A stretch of 64,000 nt of DNA from assembly GCF_037975245.1 (NCBI RefSeq), contig NC_092577.1, forward strand, positions 15,514,013 through 15,578,012. The letters run 5' to 3'. The position numbers and the translations under genes were made by a program. The notes beneath the pieces were generated by a model. It was not told the origin of the DNA and made no database searches. It saw only the letters and a program-made list of their open reading frames with translations. Shown here one piece after another: positions 17,475 through 31,203 of the stretch. Origin of the DNA: Apostichopus japonicus (Eukaryota; Echinodermata; Holothuroidea; Aspidochirotida; Stichopodidae). The first letter of the stretch is position 1. Each line of letters opens with the position of its first letter.

Positions 17475-17485
17475 CACACGAACAC
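17475..17485. repeat. Target-site duplication of LINE C, left copy
   Basis: CACACGAACAC, identical to 31098-31108. Depending on where the LINE 3' end is drawn (AAAAAGC or AAAAAGCA) the duplication is 9-11 bp. It belongs to the LINE B1 5' UTR. Confidence 0.8.
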
Positions 17486-17696
17486 GATTTTCGCCGTCTA
17501 TCTAGGGCTGCCTTTTTTGGACGGTGGTGTGCTGGGGAAGGGTGTTTTGTTTCGCTGCGTGCTGGTCGTCCTTTTGTAGTTTTTTAATATTTCAGTGGGG
17601 GGTTGGGCGTTTTGTCTCTGCAGGTCGGTGAGCGTATGTACTTTTTTTTGGCTCGCTTGACCTGAGGTTCGTTTGTAAGAATGGGATGGTTTGGTA
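17486..17696 (+). mobile_element. LINE C, 5'-truncated LINE A-type copy (left part)
   Basis: Plus-strand LINE of the A family. It begins within the last part of ORF2 (GATTTTCGCCG, GCTGCCTTTTTTGGACG, as in the copy at 38220-38290) and continues into the 3' UTR to GGTTTGGTA at 17696. There it is cut by the 13.3-kb DNA transposon and resumes at 31044. 5' truncation and flanking TSDs are typical of target-primed insertion. Confidence 0.88.
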
Positions 17697-17731
17697 CCCA
17701 GCCAGCAAGCCGACGTCGGGCCGCCGGCGGC
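17697..17731 (+). repeat. Left terminal inverted repeat of the 13.3-kb transposon
   Basis: Starts CCCAGCCAGCAAGCCGACG and matches the reverse complement of 31009-31043 (CCCAGCAAGCAAGCCGAAG...), with 4 differences in 35 positions. Confidence 0.85.
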
Positions 17732-18030
17732 ATACCAGCGGCATATCGGCAGCGGCAAACCGCTTAATACCCGCCGGTGGGCCGACGTCGGCTAATATGC
17801 GGCTTGCCGACGTCGGCCTGCCGCCGGCGGGCCGACGGCGGTGAGCAGGCGGCAAGCCGCCCGCGGTAAAGGAGCGGTTTACCGCCGGCGGGCCGACGGC
17901 GGTGAGCAGGCGGCAAGCCGCCCTCGGTAAAGAAGCGGTTTACCGCCGGCGGATGAAGGCCGAGATGCCACCGGCGGCCAGTAAGCAGCATACCGCCGGG
18001 GAGCCGGAGGCGTCATGCCGATATCGCTTA
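17732..18030 (+). repeat. GC-rich left subterminal array, including a 61-bp tandem repeat
   Basis: Built from CCGCCGGCGG, GCCGACGGCGG and GGCAAGCCGCC words, many of them palindromic. A 61-bp unit starts at 17821, is repeated at 17882 and begins a third time at 17943. Open frames across this block on the minus strand are by-products of the composition. In CACTA-type transposons such subterminal repeats bind an accessory transposition protein; that role here is inference. Confidence 0.75.
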
Positions 18031-18246
18031 CTTTACGTATTTAAGCCGTTTTTAGTGACCTGTCCATATCGTAAGCTGGAAATTTATCGGTATAATAGAT
18101 AAGCAAATTAAATTTGCCGTCAGATTATCGTTCTATATAATCCTAATGACAGATCCGCTTGGAATTATGGATTACGTGTTAATTCACTGCAAATGTTAAA
18201 TATATGAATATAAATAACACCGGCCGTTCCGATCCAATAAAGCTGC

Positions 18247-18484
18247 ATCGGCGCCGCGTGTATGGCAAAGCCATATAGGACAAACACCGCATATATCCTC
18301 GTATTAATATCCTCGTATTAATTCGAATTCATACGTGTATTAAATCATATATTGCATGTCTTATATCTGTCACCCGCATTAGCCTCGCCAGTTCAATAAA
18401 TGAGAGATGACAAAGTTAGTCTCTATATTGACGTACGCCCTGGCCAACGTACTAAATCTAGACCACATCATGATTTAATACGCC

Positions 18485-18554
<70 letters not shown>

Positions 18555-19261
18555 TATATATATATATGAATTAAAACGTGTGCATGGACTTACCCAGGGG
18601 AGCAATCACTCCCCAACCCTCCACTTTGGAGTACCCCGAAAATTCAAATCAAATAGTAAAAAGTAGGAAATATCATGAAAGCCTTCTATTCCGGATGAAG
18701 GAAGCTAAGCGACCCTTCTCAATCTTACCCCTGGAAGTTAATTCGTCAACTACACACGGAGGCTTAATAGGAACAAAGGAAGGAAAAAAGTTGTCCTCAA
18801 ATCTCAAAATGTTGCTTTTTTTATCTCATAATTTTTAACTTTCTATCTCAAAATGTTGAGATTAAAAATAAAACAAATCTCTTTTCATCCTATCAAGTAT
18901 ATTAAAATATTAAAATATTGACTTTAAAGTCAAAATGTTGACCTTTTATGTCACGAATTTGACTTTAACAATCAAAATTTGGAGATAAAAGGTCAAGATT
19001 CTGACATTTTGTATACCTTTTGGGTTAAAAATTTTGAGGAATTAATCCTCATATATGTATTCGAATTAATTCGTGTTTATAATCGAATTAATACGCGGAT
19101 ATATTTGGACCTTATGATTGGTTAAAATATATATACACGTATTTGTTCGAATTTAATTATACGCGTATATATTCAAATTAATACGCGGATATATTATGCA
19201 GTGTTTGTCTTACCATAGCTCCATGGTCTTACATGGCTTCCCATACGCGTTTGCCGCCGAT
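18247..19261. mobile_element. Non-autonomous TIR element (about 1.0 kb) nested in the transposon
   Basis: Left arm (18247-18300: ATCGGCG...CGCGTGTATGG, GACAAACACCGCATA) and right arm (19180-19261, reverse: ATCGGCGGCAAACGCGTATGG, GACAAACACTGCATA) are imperfect inverted repeats. The right arm has an extra duplication of about 19 bp. The interior is AT-rich with repeated CGAATTAATACGCG words and an (AT)n tract. No coding capacity and no clear TSD, so it could also be an inverted-repeat part of the host transposon. Confidence 0.5.
18484..18567. repeat. (AT)n microsatellite
   Basis: Nearly pure TA dinucleotide repeat. Confidence 0.9.
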
Positions 19262-20127
19262 CACGTATACTTGAAGCCTACGTGAGACGTTGCTACCCGT
19301 CATCGAACCAGAACACAAGGAAAGTGAACCAGACGATATTCGTTTCGACGCATGCGCTCATGCCAGAAGTAGTGGCAATGTGGGCGCGGCTATAACATTG
19401 TGCATGCGCATAAGGGAGAAAAGAGAAAAAGCGCCAAGTTATGAAGTGCAAGAAAAGTCGGAAAGTTGATCATTCAAGCTAACGAAACAGAATGAGGTAA
19501 GTCGTGTGTCAACTGTTGTAATTCCTTAATAAAGAACTTAACGAGTTGATTTGGTGGGATTTACTGCTTAATTGATAAAGAGTAATGGCTCTTCAAATTT
19601 CTTCCAAATGTCAAATAAAAATATAGAAAAAAAAGGAACTTTCTACCTGTTAAAAAGTGCATTTACAGTGGCAAACGGGAGCTTAGTCTTATCGGGAACG
19701 GCCAGAAAAATTGTGTACATGTTTAGTACCACTATAGTAGTACTGAGGGCCCCTGCTGCAGGCTTACTAAAATTAGTACTAGGCCTACATTTTTAAAAAT
19801 GTTTACCAAATTTAGCAAAGAAATATTGGAGATCAATGAAATTCCCAGCAGAAAAAAAAGTTAATTATAATTCACATGTACACATGGCATCTAGACTTCA
19901 TCGCTGGTCTTATTTATAGGTCAGGGTCAGACAGTAGGTGTGTATATGCATCAACGAAAATTTGTACAGCAAAATTTGGAGCATTTTTAATTATTCTTTT
20001 CCTCAAGATTGAAGGTGAAGCACATATTATTTTAGAGAATTGCAATAAAAATTAGCCAAGCAGTAGCAATATTAAGTTAAAACAGCTGATATTTTTATAA
20101 TATTCTCAGAGGCTAGGCATTGGCATA
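19262..20127. other. Non-coding part of the 13.3-kb transposon
   Basis: No recognised gene. A short CpG-containing stretch at 19240-19440 precedes an AT-rich region. It could hold a promoter, but no defining motif is visible. Confidence 0.3.
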
Positions 20128-20690
20128 CAAAAAAATCCTGATGTTTATGTTCCTTTGAATTTAAATTAAATGTTGCCAATGGGTCTAATTTTTAATTGCT
20201 ACAATTGGCATCTTTCAAACTCAATCTTGAAGTATTAAATGAGTCAATGATATTTTTATGAATACTCCAGTTTCCAAAATATATGGCCTACAATATGGCC
20301 TACAAAGAAATCCTGATGTTTATTTTCCTTTGATTTTAAATTGTTGTTTAGGCCTAGGTATGAAAATCTAATTTCTTTTAAATGTTAGGCCTAGAATTGG
20401 CATCGTTCATACTCAATCTTGATTTATTAAATGAATCCATGATACTTTTTTATGAACACTCCAGTTTCCAACATATGTGGCCTGCAATATCGCCCTCAAA
20501 GAAATCCTGATGTTTATGTTCCTTTGATTTTAAGTTGTTGTTAGGCCTATGGAAATCTAATTTATTTTATTTCTTATTTCTAAGCCTAGAATTGGCATTG
20601 TTCATACTCAATCTTGAAGTATTAAATAAGTCCATGATATTTTAATGGACACTCCAGTTTCCAACATAAATGGCCTAGCCTAACACGATG
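20128..20690. repeat. Tandem repeat, three units of about 175-194 bp
   Basis: Units begin at about 20131, 20306 and 20500 with AATCCTGATGTTTAT, and each contains CATACTCAATCTTGA-like and CACTCCAGTTTCCAA words. Units differ by small indels. Confidence 0.7.
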
Positions 20691-20737
20691 TCCACCCTCT
20701 GCGGGTAGCACATGGGTCCATACTCAAGACAAAGGCT

Positions 20738-21002
20738 GTGGCTATTCTTACGACTAGCCGTAACAATTATTCATAAACTATTCTTACGACAAAGGCGAAT
20801 TCAAGCGCAGTAAAGTAAATAAAGCAACTGCGCATGTATACGTAGTAGGGGTAACCCTAACTTTAACCCTAAACCCCAATCCTAACCCTAACCGGAAATT
20901 ATTGTTACTTCTGGTCGTAAAAATAGTACTCCTGTCATAAAAATAGCAACTGCACATGCGTAATCGGAAATTATTCTTACGAATAGTCGTAAGAATAGCC
21001 AC
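20738..21002. mobile_element. MITE with 30-bp TIRs and telomere-like interior, copy 1
   Basis: Ends read TGGCTATTCTTACGACTA and the reverse complement of the same 18 bp, with inverted similarity continuing for about 12 more bases. The interior includes short CCCTAA-type repeats (CTAACCCTAACC) and a GCAACTGC motif. A partial second copy is at 21634-21782. No TSD can be fixed by eye. Confidence 0.7.
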
Positions 21003-21633
21003 TTTGCAAGACAAATCCCCAATACCAAGTAATTTTACCAAATTTTGAAGTATCAATACATCTTGATTCCTAGCATAAAGCATATTTATGCTGGTTTAGC
21101 AAAGGCTATTTCCTAATTCAATTTTATATATGATATGTTTAATTTTGATAGCCTACTTACCAACCACAGGCTTCTTACTATACTAGCATATCGTTTGCTT
21201 TATAATGCATATAACTTGGACTTTATATATATTGCTTAGCCAAACCCGGGTTAGGTCAGACCTAGTCATTTAGGGCATAGCCTATAGCTACATGAATACC
21301 ATGGAAATAGATCTTCCCCATCTAATCAATGACAGCATAATTATACTAGAGTACACCTGGACCAGGGCTACCAGTAAGGGGTACAGGGCCCATTTTAATT
21401 TTGAGCAGTTATTAGTAACAGGTCAGCATTACAACTTACATGTGCAAGGAAACAGGTTTCAGCCTGAGAAATTAATTCTTAAAAACTTGATGTTCAGACT
21501 AAAAGCAGCATGGTGAATATAACATCCTATTACTAGGCCTTGCCTACCTACTGCATAGACATGATTGGGTATCTGAACAAATTTCAGCCTTGCATAACAT
21601 TAATACTAATAACAATGGCATATTACTATGGCC

Positions 21634-21782
21634 GTGGCTATTCTTACGACTAGTCGTAACAATTATTTATAAACTATTCTTACGACATCGGCGAATTCAA
21701 GCAGAGTAAAGTAAATAAAGCAACTGCGCATGTAGTAGGGGTAACCCTAACCCTAAACACTAACCTTAACCCTAACTGCCAC
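21634..21782. mobile_element. Same MITE, copy 2, lacking its right TIR
   Basis: Shares the left terminus GTGGCTATTCTTACGACTAG, the GCAACTGCGCATGTAG motif and the CCCTAA repeats with copy 1, then ends CTAACTGCCAC without the right inverted repeat. Confidence 0.65.
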
Positions 21783-22118
21783 TTTGTATTACTATAGGCC
21801 TACGCAGCATTATTTGCTCATGTTTTTCTTCCAATAAGAATACTTTGTATATTTTGCCTAGGCTACATAATTGATAATGACATGCTGTTACTTCCTAGCA
21901 TTCTTTCCTTGTACAGTATATACCAATTAATATACACTCATTATACTAACTAATAAACAAATCGAGCACATTGTACAATAACTCTAGGCCATTCAAACTA
22001 GAGTTGGGTTTCTCCACCCCCAGCTTTATATAACTTTTGAATAATATGATACAACTTTTGCAAGTATTGTACATAGGACTATAGTGGTAATACTACTAGT
22101 TCTATTCTATAGCCTTTG

Positions 22119-22216
22119 AACTACAAAGGCTAGAATAATAGGACTAGTACAACAACTAGGCCTACGGTAAACTACAAAGGCTAGAATAATAGGACTAGTA
22201 CAACAACTAGGCCTAC
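22119..22216. repeat. 51-bp tandem duplication
   Basis: AACTACAAAGGCTAGAATAA... to ACTAGGCCTAC occurs at 22119 and again at 22170. The two units are identical over about 47 bp, implying a recent duplication. Confidence 0.85.
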
Positions 22217-23757
22217 AGTACTTGCTGCTAGACCTACCACATATTATTATTAAATAGCCTACACAGGATCGATTAAAAGTGCCTTACCTAGTCTAAAGCC
22301 TAGGCTAAAATTCATGTCAAATTACCGAGTTCTCGACAGGGTATGGTACATACTCGTCGTGAATAGCTGTATACCACTGAAAATACGGCCTATTAATAAC
22401 CCATTGATATAAGGCCTAAACTCACGAGCTTATTTGACCGTGTGTTTGTCTCTAGCTTAGACACGTTAGGCCTACTAACTGTGTAACATAAATCTAAACA
22501 TAAATCTGATCGCGTACAAAAGCCTAGCCAGACTTTAGAGGCTCAACGTGACCTAGAATAATTCAGCTTGACTCGCTGATTTAAGCAGGAAAGTTACTAC
22601 ATGCGACACACAACGTATGTAGACTGTATCCTTTCAGTACGCCTAATCTATGTCAAACCGAAATGCGTACTCGCATGTTTGAATGTATCACCAATTATGC
22701 AAAATTCACTACTGTTCTCGGTAAAAAAAATAACCTTTAAACTGGACTAACACATTACCAGCACAACACTGAAGTACGTCAATGTGGGAGATGCACGCAA
22801 GGTACGTGCAAAATGCGATCTGCTTTGAAAAGAAATGGAACTGACCAGAGCACGCTTCGATATTTCGGCTACATTTCTGTCAAACGAACCATTGGATTCG
22901 TAATCTATGTTGAAACGAGTTATGCTATAGTCCAAAATATGGTCATCTATTTTTACTTATTGGGCTCAGTACGTGAACTGACTGTAAACAGTTCAACACA
23001 AGTGAATATGCTAAAACTGTAGTAATGTTCTACCTTGAAGGCAGCCAACTGAGCACAGTTCATTTTTTTCAAAAAGAATTGGGACAAACTGCCTAAAAGG
23101 CATACACCATTTTTTCCTTCTAGAAGTAGGACTTTCCCGTTTAAGGGTTGTAATTTGTAGCCGCTTTCAGCCACCCTTGACTGTGGAATGGGACTTGCCT
23201 TAATGTGAAAAGTTCCCTCCTGCACTCACACCTTGAAAAATAACATTCATAGAAACAGTATTGCTTGCAAAGGTTGTAAAGTTAAAACTCCCCTTTATTT
23301 AACGAATAATTTGGCAATCAACAAATGCTAACTGAATTTCTGTTACTAAAATATACATTTTAACATTCGAAACCATAAGATAAAGAAGCTAAAATAGTGA
23401 AGAAAGGCTTATTTAAAATGGACATGGTATATATACATATATGATGCATTACACTTATTACTTATCTAATAGACTGAAGGATACTGGTGAACAATTTGCA
23501 ATTGGGATTTGGTTTTCAACAAGTAATACAGAAACAAGGCAAATTTTTGAAACAACTTCACACAATCATTTTAAGCATTGTAATCAGGTGTCCCTTTTTG
23601 TGTATCGGTTCCTTCTCTCCAATAGGGTCTTTGATGGGGACGTGATTGTCCTTCCTGATCCTTTTTTCTACAAAACTAAACTAAACATTCACCACCTAAT
23701 CTATACTGTATGTACTGTAACTGTTCCAAACTTGGTTTATCTCCCTGATAGCTCATC
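22217..23757. other. Non-coding stretch upstream of the transposase gene
   Basis: No recognised coding sequence. Promoter and leader of the transposase gene should lie here, but I see no defining element. Confidence 0.3.
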
Positions 23758-25805
23758 ATGGATCATGGTCCACAATCTTATCGCACCAAGAGAAGAAAAA
23801 TCAATGATGAAGTGTTAAACTACATACAAACAATATCAGATGAATCTTGCGGGCAAAATAATTTCTCTGGACCAACAGATAACACCAGGAAGGACAATGA
23901 TAAATCTTTACATATCAAGGAAAAAAGGAGCCAACTGCAGCAGTTGCACCAACTGGAACAGTTGTCTGAAAATGATGTTGCTGATGGTGTTGACAGTGAT
24001 TTGTTCCAGACCTTTCACTCAGATGTTGATGAACTATATTCTGACTCAGATGGTGAAATTGATGGAAGTGATGAAATAAATTCCACACTGAAAATTGAGC
24101 TTGGGCAATGGGCCTCAAAGTATAATATTTCCCATGCTTCACTCTCTGAGCTCCTTGTCATTCTTCAAAATGACCATCCTGACCTTCCAAAAGACCCTAG
24201 AACTTTACTAGGCACGCAAACCAAAGTGGACACAACAATTGTCTCAGGAGGTGAATATTACCATGTTGGGATTGAGAATGGAATTACCTCTATTCTGAAC
24301 TCAAGACAAAAGTCCCTAAGTAGTAAATACAAAACAATAACGTTGCATGTAAACATTGATGGTTTACCTCTATTCAAAAGCTCAAACTCGCAGTTTTGGC
24401 CCATATTAGGTATGATCACTGCATGTGAGAGAAAGTGATTGGCTTGTGATTGGCTTTTGTGATTGGCTTGTACTATGGGAAAAGGAAACCAACTGATTTG
24501 GAATTTTTGAATGAATTTGTAGCAGACTACCAAAATGTTGAGCAAAATGGTATTCAAGTTCAGGGAGAAAAGCTTACAGTGGTTATGACAGCAATCATAT
24601 GTGATGCCCCTGCAAGAGCCATGGTCAAAAACATCAAGGGTCATAGTGGCTACTCCGGCTGTGAAAGATGTGTTCAGAGAGGCGTGTACATCAACAAAGT
24701 AACTTTCCCAGAAACAGAAGCAGATCATCGCACTGACCAGTCATTTAGAAATATGCTAGATGAAAATCATCATCTAGGGGAAACTCCACTATCCCAACTT
24801 TCATTGGGTATGGTATCCAACTTCCCTTTAGACTACATGCACCTAGTATGTTTGGGAGTGACACGCAGACTGGTAAAGCTTTGGTTGAAAGGTCCACTAA
24901 AGACAAGACAGAGCCCTCAACTTATCAGAGAAATTTCTGCAAAATTGCAATCGTTGAATGGTGCTCTACCACGTGAATTTGCTCGCCAACCTCGATCTCT
25001 GAATGAGTTTGAACGGTGGAAAGCCACAGAGCTTCGGCAATTTCTTTTGTACACCGGTCCAGTTGTTCTTTACAGAATCATTCCAAAGCCATTTTATGAA
25101 AATTTCATGCTTTTATCTGTTGCTATGTTTATACATTTGAGTCCATTCAACTGTAGCAGTTACTCTCAGCTTGGTCACCAGTTAATTGTTACTTTCATCA
25201 AGCACTATGCAACTCTCTATGGCAATGACATGATTACATACAATGTACATGGACTTGTGCATTTGAAAGAGGATGTACAACAATATGGTGCATTGGACAA
25301 TGTATCCTGTTTCCCTTTCGAAAGTTATTTGGGACAGATAAAACGAATGGTTAGGAATGCAAATTACCCCTTACAACAAGTTATTCGACGTCTTTCTGAA
25401 AACCATGTAGCATTTCCTACTAAGAGCAAAGAACTTTTTGAGCAGCCTCACAATGGTGGACAGATTCCTGAGACCATGGTAACTTCCTGACAATACAAAG
25501 TACTCAACCTTCAAGATTGCACTATCAAAATATCTATGGGGGACAACTGTGTTAAAATTGGTGAAGAAATTGTTCTTGCCAGAAACTTCTTTGTCAGCGA
25601 TGGCAGCAAGTTCATCTTATATGAAAAGTTTTGTCACAAAGAAAATTTTTTCACATATCCACTGGATTCCACCAAACTTGGCATATTCAAGATCAAATTA
25701 CTCAGTGGGAAACTAGAGTATGCTCCAATCTCAAGTATCCTGGAAAAATATGTTCTTATTCCTCGGAAGAAAAGCTTTGTGGTAGTGCCACTCCTCCATT
25801 TTTGA
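23758..25805 (+). pseudogene. Transposase of tnp2/Transposase_21 (CACTA-like) type, two breaks
   Basis: About 674 codons in three pieces: 23758-24435, 24456-25487 and 25491-25805. Motifs, in the order known for the animal relatives of plant tnp2: LPKDPRTLLGTQT, a YHVGIENGI block, LHVNIDGLPLFKSSNSQFWP, GLYYGKRKPTDLEFLNEFV, ICDAPARAMVKNIKGHSGYS followed by the zinc-like CERC, FPLDYMHLVCLGVTRRL, YNVHGLVHLKEDV, FPFESYLGQIKRMVRN, and a C-terminal FFTYPLDSTKLGIF...VVPLLHF. DYMH and FESYLGQIKRMVRN correspond to the DxMH and FERY..LK.YVRN blocks of Transposase_21/DUF4218. The enzyme should cut the element's ends. Breaks: triplication of a GTGATTGGCT unit at 24435-24470 shifts the frame, and TGA at 25488-25490 interrupts the C-terminal part. 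It therefore no longer encodes a full transposase here. Confidence 0.82.
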
Positions 25806-25859
25806 ATTTGTACCGTACCTGATCATGGCTATTCATTATCATCATTACTGTCTTTCAGC

Positions 25860-28800
25860 ATGTCTGATACTCAAACTTTCTTGGTTGTTGCCTTTGCTGG
25901 TGAAGACGGTGTAGGAGTCATTCCATCGCAATGGAGAACTGGCGAAAGAGAATGCTTCTGGCCACCATATAAATCTTCTACAAGGTTTGAGAAGGCAGTC
26001 AAGTCAGTGGAAGCCCCGCAAGCATCTTGGACGAGACATACCATTCGGGTTCTGTCAACAACAGGTATTGTAAACACAATTAATTCAAATGAAAGTGTAA
26101 AATGATTTGCAATAACAATGTTTCTTTCAATAACATTATGCTTTGTGGTTACTTTGATGGATCAAGGTGCTACAAAGACCACAGTATCTCACTGTATAGT
26201 GTTGTAAATCTCCACGACGTAAATGTTGAAACTGAGAAAAGTGTATCTGTACATGTGTGTTCTGTACGAGATTAAAACCTTTCATTTACAGATAGGACCA
26301 TACCACTGTATAGTGTACAGTAGTTTACTAGTTCATCACAATTGCCCACTATCAAGATTTTTTTTCAATTGTTTCATTTCTTCAGGTTCCTATGCACGGG
26401 CAATGATCTTATTGACAAGGGCTGAGGAGACTTCAGACTTAGCTACTGAAAATGAAGATGAGAGGCCATCAAAGCGCAGGAAGTTGTAAGTGTCCAATAT
26501 ATAAATATGCTAATGTTCGATTTAAATAAACCAAGCAAAACTGCTACAAAAATAAATGCAGGTTATACTGTACATTCCAAAATTACCATCACTGATCTTT
26601 CTCATAGAGATGCTGACAGTGAACATACAGTACAGTCTCACTCAAACAACTTAAACCAAAAGTGCCATCCTTACTGACTTAACAAGTATGAAACTCAGAA
26701 AGTTCAGTAATATTTTATGAACTCTAGCTCCATATTTAAATTGACCTATAATCAGCTTAAATCATACCGGACATAAAAATCCCATATGTTCAAATCAGAC
26801 ACAATACTCTCAACATGGATGTTATGGTAAAGGCAATATCTGTGATGTACTTACTTTTCATACTCATAGGCAAAATCGCCGGTATGTGTCTTCCTCTGAC
26901 GACACAGAAGAAGAAGCTGAGAATTTCACCCTGCCTCCACCGATTCAGCCATTGGTTCCCCTCACAACGCCATTGACCTCCAATATAAATCCTCAATCAC
27001 AGAGGCAAAATTTTCCTGATGCTGTCGTATCAACAATAAGTGCAAGGCACTCTACCGGGTCTACCCAGTCACTAGCAGGGTCCAGTCGGAACATATCTCC
27101 CATGTCAACACCAGATTTGATTGTTAATGGTGTGTAGTACCGTAAATTTAAACAAAGCATTGTACATGATCTGCATTTGTAAAGGTTCAAGTACTGCTAT
27201 AATGCACATTTCTTTGACCTGCTGACCAAGCCTTGGTGACTGGTAATGTGGCAACCATGCAAACTATTACTCCAGTTACTGTTTACTAAGGCTAAATATT
27301 TCTCTCTTTTTCTTAATTACTGTACTTCTGTGCCAGGGAATGCAATGTATATACAGTACCAGTCTGCTATTCTCACATTGCACTTCCACTTCAAAGTGAC
27401 TACTTTTAACATCTGATGTCTCTTAACAGCAACTCAGAAGAAGATCCTTATGATTTTGGCAGAAATAAAAGCTGAAGTAAGGGACCTGAAGCGCCAAACA
27501 GTTGCAAATTCTCATTTAATTCAATCCCTTAAGACCTCCCATTTGGATTTGGAGGAACTGCCAGATGATGTAAACTTGCCCCTTTCATCTGTTCCACTTC
27601 TGACAGCTCTGGATGAACTTGCCCGGACTGATTTTAATGTGGAGAAACGTTTGGTAATTGCCCATACTTTGTCCTATGTAAGAAGGAAAAATACATACAC
27701 TATATATAAATAAATAGGTTGTATATACTGTATGAAATAAGAACTCACCACTTACTAATATAGCTTAGCAAATAACGAGTGTGCGTCAATTATGAAGTAT
27801 TTAGCAGACTCGTCAACTCTCCCTGTTTCAAATGGAAGCCTACTAAAGAAACCCTGTAGAAAGCGAAGTCAGCTGCTGCAAACTACAACAAGAAACACTG
27901 ATTGGAAGATTCTCTCACTGTATTGCATAAGTAGACTAGGGCCTATACTTATTTAGGAGTATTTATATCATTTCAGTTGAAAATGACCAACCTCCCGATT
28001 TTCCCCTTGTGCTCCCTATTTTTTGGCCATGAAAAATGTTATTCTCCCTATTTTGGGGTCAAACAGGTTGACAGGTCTGATTTAGTAAACCTTGTCAATT
28101 GAGCTACATTAGCCTAGTCATTTACCGAACCTTCCACTATACAGTACTATTGAAAAACCTATACTACAGTAATACATACCTTATCAATGGTAGAACCTTG
28201 AAAATTGTAGTGCCTGCACAGTAAAGTAATCGTTACTCGATAGTAACGGCATGACTTCTTGCATTGTTTTTGCGAAGTCATAGAAGTAGTTGTTGTCGTT
28301 GTACGTATAGACATTATTTTTTTACAACAGGTATTCAAAGTTGGACAGTTCACGATATAATTTGGAGCAATATTACTTTAGACGAATACAGGATGTGGAA
28401 TAAGCTATTGATTTATGGTAGATTGTTGTATCACTCACTGTCTCGTGCACGTTTCTGGTGTAAAATAAGCATGCTGGAAAAAACGTCAAGTTGAAGCTAG
28501 TTGGAGCATAACGCAGTCCTCAGAAAATTCTGGCTTCCATGAAGACTCAAAGATTCACAACTGTTTTCTTCCAGATTTTGACACTGTCGTCAGTAGGTGG
28601 GCAGATCTTGCCTGTAGCAGTAAGAAGGATGCTGCAGGAATTGATCCAAAATAGTGTAGCCAAATGCATTAATTGGACTGGTCAAGGGGAGAAGTTGGCA
28701 TTTAAGGACCTGTTCCTTCGAAAAGTTTTAGAAAGTTCGTACAATTTATTGAATATTTGCTTACTTTACATTATGTACGCCTTACTTTTTGCAAAGCTAT

Positions 28801-29502
28801 TTTCCCGTATCTATTTGCTTTATTGTAACGAGAACGTCCCCGGCATCGCTTTCGATTGATAACGGACAGATCCACGGCCAAGAAAAAATCAGTAGACAAG
28901 TACTTAGGCCTATTATGATATGCATATTAGATAAGGCTATTAGTTGATAATTGTATACCAAGATATCTTCGGCAGAGACTTAATTCATATGTGCTTCACC
29001 TTCAATACTAAGATTATAGCATGCTATAATTTGGGGCCAATACAGAATACCCTAAAGCCCGCAAATGAACTGACGAACGTGCTCCGGTACGTGGGAGCAG
29101 TGAGTTTCCATAACAACTCCCTGCTGCAACATGGGGAGCGAAACTAGTGGCTCACACACTCAGGAAAACTACCTGGAATTTGCTGGTTTATGTGGTTGGA
29201 GTTCATATTAAAAGGACGAAGTTCCCTTTCCTTTAAAATATACACAAACGATGTATTATTATGAAGAACTTACATGCATATTCTCTCAATGTAAGGAACT
29301 AAAAGTTTTTCTTTTTGACTTTCTTCTTTTTTCAACTGTAGAAGCAATTAGGAAAAACCAAGAAACTTCCAACTCCACGGCAGTGGACATTCAAAGGGAG
29401 GTCGTTAAATTTTTTAAAGGAGCCTCTGATAGAGAAGGGGGTCGGAAGGCAAGGCAGCAACGCCACTTCGACGTTCAGTTTGGTAACGAACAGGAGGAAT
29501 AA
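25860..29502 (+). CDS. Six-exon gene with C-terminal DUF4806-type domain, intact
   Basis: Exons 25860-26064, 26386-26485, 26870-27129, 27430-27653, 28575-28734 and 29342-29502 have GT-AG borders and join in phase into 1,110 nt (369 aa) with no stop. Exon 1: an N-terminal module (VVAFAGEDGVGVIPSQW, CFWPPYK) often paired with DUF4806. Exon 2 ends in a basic RPSKRRKL, a likely nuclear signal. Exon 3: Ser/Pro/Thr-rich linker after an acidic patch. Exon 4: short coiled coil (LAEIKAEVRDLKRQ), then ELPDDVNLPLSSV. Exon 5: LSSVGGQILPVAVRRMLQEL and CINWTGQGEKLAFKDL, the DUF4806 core. Exon 6: VVKFFKGASDREGGRKARQQ. An AG acceptor at 25857-25858 lies one base before the ATG, so an upstream leader exon is expected. 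It is not identified. Molecular function is unknown; it is probably nuclear and possibly the element's DNA-binding partner. Confidence 0.85.
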
Positions 29503-30830
29503 CCTTTCGTTATAGCTCTATCCTTCGGCAGTACATGGCTTTTAATTCTGCAGATATATTAAGCTGTTACACTTACATTGTTACACTCTTCATAATTTTC
29601 TTGTATTGCAGAATCTACTATGTTCCTCACGTCAGTTACAGCCATGAATTCATTTCATGCAATTGAAATCTCAATTAGTGCAGTTTAATTTTTAAGATAT
29701 GCAAATGCATGCTTACCAATATGGTCATATATTTTGGCTCATCCTTTTGGTAGTATTTTACATATTTAACCACCAGTCAAGATTTATCACCAGCACGTCC
29801 AATTATTGCATATACTGTACCTCTCCCCTATGATACTTTTTGTAAGAATGTATGGTTGTTATACTGAGTTTTTCCTCACGAGAAATACTCTTTAGTGAGA
29901 GGGAAACACATTCCACTCAGTGTATTTAACGAAACTCTAACTCATAATGAGATGTAAAGGCCAACAATACGAGGTACGGAATGATCATGAAATTCCGAGC
30001 AAAGGATTCAAGTTTTCCAAAGTCCCTGATATTAACGACCTGGTATGAAAAATAACAAGTTGGTGTCCCTGTATTACCAAATAAGTGGTGGCGGGGGGGG
30101 GGGGGGTAGGGAGAGTAACGGTACGTTCCGTTTGTAAAAACATGTTTTCTCATATCATCTGTCCAGACTGAACAGCGTTTCTTCCAATCCGGTTGCAAAG
30201 TCCACATATAAAGTACTGGTTTTGCTTTATTCTTGTTGAAACAGCTTTGTGATGGTCCACAGTATAATTATAAGCAAAAATGGAGGGAACGCCGAACGTA
30301 TTGTTCCTTTCTACACTGTTTCTATTTCGGCGCACGGTGGGCGTCTTCATTTGATATTATGATGGCAAGTGTTTTCATAAATCTGCTTCACTCTTTTCCT
30401 CCATTCTGTGGCTTTATCAAATAATTTAAGTGAATTGTTCATAAATGGCTAAAACATCTGGTAATTAAAGGAAACTGCATTAAATTAATAAATTATGACA
30501 ATGTTATGTCAATGCTCCTTGTCTTATGTTTTTATTAAAATTTTGGTTTCACTTTACTGTCGTTATATCTGGAATACACTTCTAAAAGTTTTGCTGTCCC
30601 CACAGTCTTTCTGGATATTCAATTAATAAAACTTTTCGAAAATGACCCACTTAAATCTACACACATGCAGTGACTAGTTTCCAGCTGGAAATATTTCATC
30701 AACTATTTCATCATCATATTTCATCAACTGTCACAATTTTTAAAATAATCTATTTGACTATTACAGCTGGGTCCCAGTATAAAATTAAAGTATAAATGAA
30801 AAAAAAAAAAACATAATTGAAAGACATCGG
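29503..30830. other. Non-coding right part of the 13.3-kb transposon
   Basis: AT-rich, with a G run at 30092-30107 and an A run near 30799-30811. Holds the 3' UTR of the DUF4806 gene; no further gene is recognised. Confidence 0.35.
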
Positions 30831-31043
30831 CGCTGATTTGCCGGCGGCCCGCCATCCGCCCGCCGTCGGCCCGCCCCCGGCGGGCCTGCTTTGAGCCGCC
30901 GGCGGGCCAGCCTCGAGCCGCCGGCGGCCCGCCGGTGGCCCGGCGGCGTTTCCGCCCGCGGTCCGCCGACTTGCCGTCTGCCAAATCTACGGCGGCCCGC
31001 CGGCGACAGCCGCCGTCGGGCCGACTTCGGCTTGCTTGCTGGG
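30831..31043 (-). repeat. GC-rich right subterminal array and right TIR
   Basis: Composed of GCCGGCGGCCCGCC, GAGCCGCCGGCGGGCC and related words, mirroring the left subterminal block. The last 35 bp (31009-31043) form the right TIR, ending GGCTTGCTTGCTGGG next to the duplicated TA. Confidence 0.8.
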
Positions 31044-31097
31044 TAGTGCCGTTTGGCCGTGACGTTTTGTATCCCGTATGACGGGTCACGTAAAAAG
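31044..31097 (+). mobile_element. LINE C, 3' end (right part)
   Basis: Resumes the LINE 3' UTR at TAGTGCCGTTTGGCCGTGAC and ends GTCACGTAAAAAG, exactly continuing the segment that stops at 17696. Confidence 0.88.
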
Positions 31098-31203
31098 CAC
31101 ACGAACACAAGCTACCACACCCGCCCGGCGGGAAGTAAAGTGATATTAAAAGCTGTAATAGGTGGAGAACGAGAGCGAAACACGTCTGCACTCCACGAAA
31201 GCC
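31098..31203 (-). mobile_element. LINE B1, extreme 5' end (with right TSD of LINE C at 31098-31108)
   Basis: Minus strand starts GTTGGCTTTCGTGGAGTGC, then CAGACGTGTTTCGCTCTC, the 5' motif shared with LINE A1 and B3. It joins across the LINE C insertion to 17485. 31098-31108 duplicates 17475-17485. Confidence 0.8.

Follow-up and report, generated by a model that had tools for sequence, protein, structure and literature searches.

Positions 17697-31043 of the window (the whole stretch of 64,000 nucleotides of Apostichopus japonicus DNA that was analysed) hold a single 13.3-kb DNA transposon sitting within a LINE, and its features are listed in Table 1. The tips are imperfect inverted repeats, 31 of 35 bases matching between left and right, and GC-rich arrays lie inside both ends; boundaries, repeat match and arrays were found as claimed in the initial annotation. 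The LINE's own target-site duplication had been described as split across the element, and the repeat CACACGAACAC was located by eye on both sides, at 17475-17485 and 31098-31108. For the empty site, the two flanks were fused around one copy of TA into a 107-bp query, which was matched at 100% identity over positions 1-107 or 2-107 in all 40 sites scored (the best 40 of 844 candidates). The segment is a real cut-and-paste transposon and one unit. Between its boundaries it contains tandem repeats as well as a long AT microsatellite.

Table 1. Features of the element and its insertion site (positions in the window)
Feature	Position	Strand	Remarks
Left target-site duplication, TA	17695..17696	.	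from sequence and empty site
Left terminal inverted repeat, CCCAGCCAGC...	17697..17731	+	31/35 to right
Left GC-rich, CpG-rich subterminal array	17697..18020	.	inner edge approximate
61-bp units within left array	17821-17952		
Transposase reading frame	23758..25805	+	broken in window copy
Small tandem duplication	24435..24471	+	interrupts transposase frame
In-frame stop inside transposase frame	25488..25490	+	absent from sibling
AG, probable splice acceptor	25857..25858	+	1 nt before gene 2 start codon; same layout in four families
Gene 2 exon A (DUF4806 gene)	25860..26064	+	
Gene 2 exon B	26386..26485	+	
Gene 2 exon C	26870..27129	+	
Gene 2 exon D	27430..27653	+	first half of DUF4806
Gene 2 exon E	28575..28734	+	second half of DUF4806
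Gene 2 exon F	29342..29502	+	conserved KGASDREGGRKAR-like tail and stop
Right GC-rich, CpG-rich subterminal array	30840..31043	.	inner edge approximate
Right terminal inverted repeat, CCCAGCAAGC...	31009..31043	-	read on minus strand
Right target-site duplication, TA	31044..31045	.	

Further full copies were sought, as had been proposed, by the tips. The tip pattern CCCAGCMAGCAAGCCGAMGTCGG, with up to two mismatches, occurred 23 times in the genome and 0 times in the control; by position, 14 of the 23 tips formed seven facing left/right pairs 13.1-17.4 kb apart and nine were unpaired. Two siblings from the seven pairs were aligned full length, and both were collinear with the window element: identity was 98.8-98.9% in the two long blocks of c4 and 87-98% in the main blocks of c2. 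A perfect 2-bp duplication flanked every one of the seven pairs (TA five times, AT and AA once each). When the sister families F1, F2 and F3 were added to the window family, an exact 2-bp duplication was present at 29 of 31 independent insertions and missing at two; at 3 bp no match was seen in any of 33 flank rows. L084/L086 were counted once, as were L085/L087/L088, because their flanks look alike; F3b was added to the rows, and the count left out the one-tip copies or fragments C16:2450120, C2:31279009, C4:1208762, C6:8852989, C14:3437376 and C17:22541063 together with the remaining unpaired tips. TA made up 10 of 30 matched rows, the others being AT, TT, AA, TC, AC, CA, TG, GG, AG and GA. 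The TA duplication of the initial annotation is thus correct for the window copy, but the family rule is 2 bp of varied sequence.

Tips beginning CCCAG are shared by the window family, F1, F2 and F3, and CCCTAG is the right tip of a distant relative, G. The copies measured were 10.5-17.6 kb long. Six shortened derivatives of F3 occupy three distinct sites; all retain 383-485 bp from the left end, 315-317 bp from the right and a common internal stretch of about 1.07 kb, and mobilisation in trans would therefore need nothing beyond these.

The transposase frame of the window copy is broken, and the copy is therefore not autonomous as read, so that its earlier description as an autonomous-type element does not hold; open frames were found in three siblings, one of them reaching 677 aa (C17:20746071-20759611). 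Numbered on that 677-aa protein, D201, D278, C297/C300, H493/H497 and E517 were invariant in all five families aligned. These residues give the CACTA/Mirage/Chapaev/Transib (CMCT) signature D, D, C(2)C, H(3-4)H, E, as defined in the text excerpted from PMC12730594. Relative G (C17:25000517) matched the transposase with 33% identity (E 2.1e-37), exceeded the Transposase_21 cut-off with 40.3 bits and carried all signature residues. In the Pfam scan the sibling, F1 and F3 transposases did not reach the Transposase_21 (PF02992) cut-off (F3 12.2 bits; sibling and F1 unlisted). The only Pfam cut-off passed in the window family, F1 and F3 was that of DUF4218, by F3 (29.2 against 27), the window fragment scoring 20.1. 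The assignment to the tnp2/CACTA type was upheld by the catalytic signature and by G as an intermediate, the transposase itself being under the PF02992 cut-off. A structure predicted without an alignment for the 346-aa window fragment had a pLDDT of 36.8 and was set aside, and viral contigs scanned with alignments of the transposase and of DUF4806 yielded no confirmed relative.

Gene 2 was modelled with six exons and five GT-AG introns, encoding 369 aa uninterrupted in the window copy; in sibling c2 its frame is broken. The F2 D/E junction, F2 having no clean acceptor, and some F1-F3 junction residues were placed by homology. In 4/4 families YAG plus 1 nt stands directly before the gene 2 ATG, a context shared by 2% of the 280 ATGs counted along the stretch of one copy, and the first coding exon probably begins at a splice acceptor in the four families. 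DUF4806 (PF16064; Pfam cut-off 25) was scored at 48.1 bits in F1, 28.5 in F2 and 43.9 in F3; the C-terminal part of the window protein reached 25.9, and the whole 369 aa, at 23.5, fell under the cut-off. The F2 gene-2 part also reached the SATase_N family's own cut-off (22 against 21). A transposase lies just upstream on the same strand for 38 of 43 gene-2 clusters, compared with a mean of 0.36 and a maximum of 3 in 500 random placements that considered distance and strand only. Both the DUF4806 second gene and the reading of one two-gene element, as first annotated, were borne out. The gene-2 exons are homologous in four families between which other DNA similarity is almost undetectable, which argues for a kept function.

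DUF4806 was not picked up anywhere by a genome-wide search with its Pfam family, an outcome that probably reflects the intron within the domain and is uninformative on absence. Gene 2 gave 0 matches in a PDB search. Profile A1 gave 16, all regarded as chance matches. Nine were TAL-repeat, TALE or designed-repeat chains with single-repeat scores of about 5 bits or less (from two alignments, in part); the others were THR1 (E 0.082), four serine acetyltransferases (E about 2) and two ribosomal L15 proteins (E 0.67 and 0.83). Excerpts of PMC11075544 cite Pan et al. 2023 for a link between DUF4806 and BEN; comparison of DUF4806 with BEN proteins of the same genome, using very thin profiles, gave an hhalign probability of 0.2%. 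A link between DUF4806 (PF16064, IPR032071) and transposons does not appear in the excerpts of PMC7642931, PMC11075544 and PMC13270666, and a limited literature search for BEN domains with CACTA transposons returned only unrelated co-occurrences of the words. As far as these limited searches show, DUF4806 as the partner gene of a CACTA-like element is new.

The end arrays had been described as repeats of the CCCAGCAAGC tip; they consist instead of array motifs such as CCGCCGGCGG and CGACGTCG. In five elements the observed/expected CpG ratio was 1.06-1.99 in the end arrays versus 0.37-0.81 in the interior, and the number of 61-bp units varied from 0 to 4 among eight copies. The ends of the window element hold CCGCCGGCGG six times and CGACGTCG three times, the interior neither, each count being reached in 0 of 300 shuffles. 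One or other palindrome is repeated in the subterminal arrays of three of the four families; the F1 ends are without CGACGTCG, and the F3 interior holds it six times. Palindromic 8-mers as a class were not enriched in the ends of the window family (10 versus 7.5 expected; 64/300 shuffles) or of F2 (4 versus 5.7), and a general palindrome enrichment at the ends, unsupported in two of four families, was rejected.

The best explanation of the whole, given a probability of about 0.8, is an animal cut-and-paste element of the TRC type (transposon related to CACTA, a group described in 2006; PMC1636069, in excerpt) whose single transcription unit would yield a transposase and a TNPA-like DUF4806 protein. 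It is built on what was observed: the tips and their 2-bp duplication, the empty site, the presence of several copies, the catalytic signature and the conserved gene 2 with GT-AG introns in its model. By analogy with maize Spm, one left-hand transcription unit would be alternatively spliced into two products. One would be a DDE transposase, which would cleave at the CCC tips and join the element to target sites, most often TA, with a stagger of 2 bp. The other, the DUF4806 protein, may do what TNPA does: it would attach to the CpG-rich subterminal motifs of the left and right ends, pair these ends and perhaps control the element. Movement of the window copy would have been recent, with transposase from itself before decay or from intact siblings.

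That the segment was misassembled, or combines two elements nested in or lying next to each other, might be suggested by its internal tandem repeats and AT microsatellite, but this reading is already contradicted by the seven facing pairs with a 2-bp duplication at each, by the collinear siblings and by the clean empty site, and its probability is negligible. A lineage outside CACTA/EnSpm, that is, a new superfamily with CCC tips and 2-bp duplications, would accommodate a transposase under the Transposase_21 cut-off, tips that are not CACTA and a duplication of 2 rather than 3 bp. It is very unlikely, given that G passes that cut-off with all signature residues, that G's right tip CCCTAGTAG resembles the Tribolium TRC tip in excerpts of PMC1636069, and that CCCAGCCAACATTGAC of Hydra Spongebob, with its 2-bp duplication, agrees with the left tip over its first 8 bases (PMC4298943, in excerpt).

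Another reading makes gene 2 a passenger, or a host gene that was captured (e.g. one for a chromatin factor or a suppressor of silencing), and gives it no function at the ends. No gene-2 match was found in 9.9-kb stretches around G that reach its right tip but not its left, and gene 2 may therefore be dispensable in a CCC-tipped relative. The homologous exons in four otherwise dissimilar families stand against a passenger, as does the need of plant CACTA elements for a second, fast-diverging end-binding protein (PMC2613891, in excerpt), and we consider it rather unlikely. Returning to the TRC-type reading with a TNPA-like partner, we give about even odds to its extension: that in animal CCC-tipped CACTA elements a DUF4806/BEN-type protein is the TNPA, binding CG-bearing subterminal motifs in a possibly methylation-sensitive manner, and that part of the many 'DUF4806 genes' swelling animal gene counts (excerpts of PMC7642931 list 69 and 54 in two species of Hydra) are second genes of transposons and not of the host.

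These results provide a fuller anatomy for animal CACTA relatives, comprising tips, duplication rule, end arrays, two genes and shortened derivatives. For DUF4806, a domain of unknown function, they offer a candidate role in a probable transposon end-binding protein. Expansions of DUF4806 gene families in animal genomes may be mobile DNA, and a question from plants, that of the control which a second protein and the end arrays exert over CACTA elements, can now be asked in animals.

The element is a new family within the known animal CACTA-related (TRC/EnSpm) group and not a new kind, EnSpm being the Repbase-style name for TRC-type elements. Its tips start with CCC and its duplication is 2 bp (29/31 insertions over the four families), matching published TRC/EnSpm elements, and a distinct superfamily is therefore unsupported; the suggestion of a distinct family stands as regards the family, but the group was known, CCC-tipped relatives with 2-bp duplications having been published in 2006 and 2015 (PMC1636069, PMC4298943). 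According to excerpts of PMC1636069, the TRC elements SmTRC1 of Schistosoma mansoni, Aedes aegypti TRC (tip CCCAGTCAAC, 9.2 kb) and Tribolium TRC share with it the CCC tip core, 2-bp duplication, tnp2-related transposase and tandem repeats; they also have a second product from spliced downstream exons, to which that of gene 2 would correspond. They are smaller (4.5, 5.2 and 9.2 kb versus 10.5-17.6 kb here), SmTRC1's other products were reported without detectable conservation, in contrast to DUF4806 here, and CpG-rich arrays at both ends set the present element apart. The SmTRC1 paper is cited in the reference list of PMC13155389 and, for CACTA tips, in excerpts of PMC2884549. Spongebob/EnSpm-4N1_HM of Hydra (tip CCCAGCCA..., 2-bp duplication) is likewise filed as TRC, with a 5.8-kb consensus, the exact transposase unrecovered and no second gene reported in the excerpts of PMC4298943. 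Fungal ESTA and Plavaka share the C(2)C and H(3-4)H motifs of the CMCT signature between the second D and E, but ESTA has TA duplications (TA in 10/30 rows and 5/7 window-family pairs here) and Plavaka has tips TGT..ACA or CATCA..TGATG, and a TET/JBP gene, not DUF4806, is described in some of their families (PMC12730594, in excerpt). Canonical plant CACTA elements have CACTA tips and 3-bp duplications (PMC2613891, in excerpt), unlike the CCCAG tips and 0/33 matches at 3 bp here, as had been noted of the termini. Pfam, by which the second proteins were compared, shows only DUF4806 for the one here. Plant Spm/En and Tgmt*, in excerpts of the same paper, resemble the present element in large size and variable subterminal arrays; they have a transposase with an end-binding protein, the part proposed here for gene 2, and a splicing-based second product, as is predicted for the window element.

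Flanks of the window element joined with a single TA served as an empty-site query. It matched at 100% in 40/40 scored places (the best 40 of 844 candidates), spanning 1-107 or 2-107, so many almost identical copies of the LINE exist without the insert, and the insertion is recent. The initial annotation had proposed a single unit inserted in a LINE, and this comparison confirmed it. The element is flanked by TA at both ends and has the tips CCCAGCCAGCAAGCCGACGTCGG... on the left and CCCAGCAAGCAAGCCGAAGTCGG... on the right on the opposite strand (identity 31/35). Two internal repeats were noted within it, a long microsatellite of AT and a tandem repeat of 194 bp (window 18485-18567, 20199-20677).

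The tip pattern occurred 23 times in the genome (control, 0). Fourteen occurrences formed seven facing pairs by position, 13.1-17.4 kb apart, and nine were unpaired. Every pair was flanked by a 2-bp duplication without mismatch (TA five times, AT once, AA once), and the claim that both ends belong to one unit was thereby upheld; the family has been mobile in the past. Left and right tips differed consistently at base 18 (C in 7/7 left, A in 7/7 right), while base 7 was A in 7/7 right and C in 6/7 left tips. Five matches to the left end, spaced at ~150-175 kb, were seen at C2:30.6-31.3 Mb, perhaps a segmental duplication bearing an element fragment.

Coordinates of the element, its second gene (gene 2), related copies and sister families (C17, contig NC_092577.1; C16 and C20, other contigs of the assembly)
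Feature	Position	Details
Window	C17:15514013-15578012	genome searched, 671.6 Mb
Insert (window element)	17697-31043	13,347 bp
Gene 2 exon A	25860-26064	
Gene 2 exon B	26386-26485	
Gene 2 exon C	26870-27129	
Gene 2 exon D	27430-27653	
Gene 2 exon E	28575-28734	
Gene 2 exon F	29342-29502	
Facing tip pair 1	window element	
Facing tip pair 2	C17:17671810-17685315	
Facing tip pair 3	C17:20746071-20759611	open 677-aa transposase frame
Facing tip pair 4	C17:18897386-18914742	
Facing tip pair 5	C17:23826367-23841291	
Facing tip pair 6	C16:43000009-43014664	
Facing tip pair 7	C16:26173571-26186686	
Sister family F1		tip CCCAGTAAGC; 13.4 kb (one copy measured)
Sister family F2		tip CCCAGTACGC; 10.5 kb (one copy measured); both ends read in seven copies
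Sister family F3		tip CCCAGTAAACATTTTGACGTCGG; 17.6 kb (one copy measured); 49 tips found
F3 tip adjoining F2 left tip	C16:12580684-12580730	
F3 tip adjoining F2 left tip	C16:34016899-34016945	
F3 tip adjoining F2 left tip	C16:37093058-37093104	
Three gene 2 exons	C20:2621748-2624046	open frames, 62-79% identity

A transposase search of the genome gave at least 110 matches in at least 87 clusters. Transposase identity of the three sister families was 51-55% over the search query, in the copies that were read, and 45-50% over the full alignment. Two lesions break the window transposase, a short tandem duplication (24435-24471) and a stop (25488-25490); in three siblings the frame is open over 668-679 codons, with no stops within the match. 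Thirty of the 87 clusters lay within ~11 Mb (C17:15-26 Mb, including the window), and C17 also held 28 of the 40 best LINE empty-site places (of 844); recombination may be low in this region, or it may be sex-linked. At three C16 sites an F3 tip directly adjoins an F2 left tip, with 24 bp of the F3 tip fused to the F2 tip in the two sites whose letters were read; this chimeric end seems to have multiplied.

Among 33 tabulated insertions of the four families, 30 had an exact 2-bp duplication and none a 3-bp match; with repeated insertions merged and an extra F3 copy added, the tally was 29/31 independent insertions. TA was most frequent (10/30), the others being AT, TT, AA, TC, AC, CA, TG, GG, AG and GA. 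The TA duplication reported initially is therefore real at the window element as a single case of a 2-bp rule, and specificity for TA was not borne out.

The window element had a GC content of 0.68-0.88 in its terminal stretches (left 300 bp, right 200 bp) versus 0.38 in its interior, and CpG observed/expected in five elements was 1.06-1.99 in the ends versus 0.37-0.81 inside. The window ends (320 + 210 bp) held CCGCCGGCGG six times and CGACGTCG three times, the interior neither, and neither end count was equalled in 300 dinucleotide shuffles. The ends of F2 (3 vs 0.06) and F3 (42 vs 1.65, with 6 further inside F3) likewise showed an excess of CGACGTCG, which was absent from those of F1; palindromes as a class were enriched in F1 and F3 ends only (four families tested). 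A 61-bp unit of the left array occurred 0 to 4 times per copy in eight copies (siblings counted over the first 400 bp). F3 also has six short derivatives of 1.77-1.88 kb, at three different insertion sites. Their left ends are kept over 383-485 bp and their right ends over 315-317 bp, together with a single internal stretch of ~1.07 kb; these are the stretches preserved under mobilisation in trans.

Gene 2 was modelled as six exons with five GT-AG introns encoding a 369-aa protein, uninterrupted in the window and sibling c4 and frame-broken in sibling c2. Homologues of exons A, D, E and F are collinear in F1, F2 and F3, and that of exon B was found in F2; no clean acceptor was found at the D/E junction of the F2 copy read. 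Against a DUF4806 cut-off of 25, the complete window protein scored 23.5 and its C-terminal part 25.9; the equivalent parts scored 48.1 in F1, 28.5 in F2 and 43.9 in F3. The part from F2 was in addition above the SATase_N cut-off (22 vs 21), a match judged to be chance. A transposase lay just upstream on the same strand at 38/43 gene 2 clusters; random placement, judged on distance and strand only, gave a mean of 0.36 and a maximum of 3 of 43 (500 trials). YAG plus one base precedes the start codon in 4/4 families, compared with 2% of the 280 ATGs across the stretch of one copy, so the first coding exon most likely starts at a splice acceptor and is spliced to an upstream leader. The C20 exons, with no transposase match nearby, are a candidate relic or domesticated DUF4806 gene.

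Both genes are conserved across the sister families. A DDE transposase would make staggered cuts at the CCC tips, and the DUF4806 protein may bind the end arrays, a new and testable idea for a domain of unknown function. A link between DUF4806 and transposons was not found in a limited open-access search of excerpted DUF4806 literature. The proposed kinship of DUF4806 with BEN is taken from PMC11075544 (citing Pan et al. 2023); a comparison with BEN proteins of this genome, made with very thin profiles, gave no match. A near-identical BEN-domain frame was repeated at several loci read (L097, L098, L100 and L102 among those) and is probably present at many more of the 27 loci found; another repeat family thus probably carries a BEN protein.

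The window element and its sisters do not match plant CACTA (different tips, 3-bp duplication there), ESTA (TA duplication) or Plavaka (different tips). In Pfam scans of the window family, F1 and F3, DUF4218 matched weakly (window transposase fragment, 20.1 bits; F3, 29.2 bits; cut-off 27) and Transposase_21 matched F3 alone, at 12.2 bits. The window-family transposase, below the Transposase_21 cut-off, is tied to that domain through a more distant relative at C17:25000517 (right tip CCCTAGTAGAAATTCC), which aligns with it at E 2.1e-37 and exceeds the cut-off at 40.3 bits. Residues D201, D278, C297, C300, H493, H497 and E517 (677-aa sibling numbering) are invariant in the five-family alignment; they correspond to the signature D, D, C(2)C, H(3-4)H, E of the CACTA/Mirage/Chapaev/Transib clade (PMC12730594). 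The leader splicing suggested for gene 2 would parallel that of the second product of Spm (PMC2613891, PMC1636069). CCC tips and 2-bp duplications are shared by the window element and its sisters with SmTRC1, Aedes TRC (CCCAGTCAAC) and Tribolium TRC (CCCTAGTAGCACC...) (PMC1636069) and with Hydra Spongebob/EnSpm-4N1_HM (CCCAGCCAACATTGAC; PMC4298943). The element is of a known kind, well documented through its siblings, and with its sister families fits the animal TRC/EnSpm-type group.
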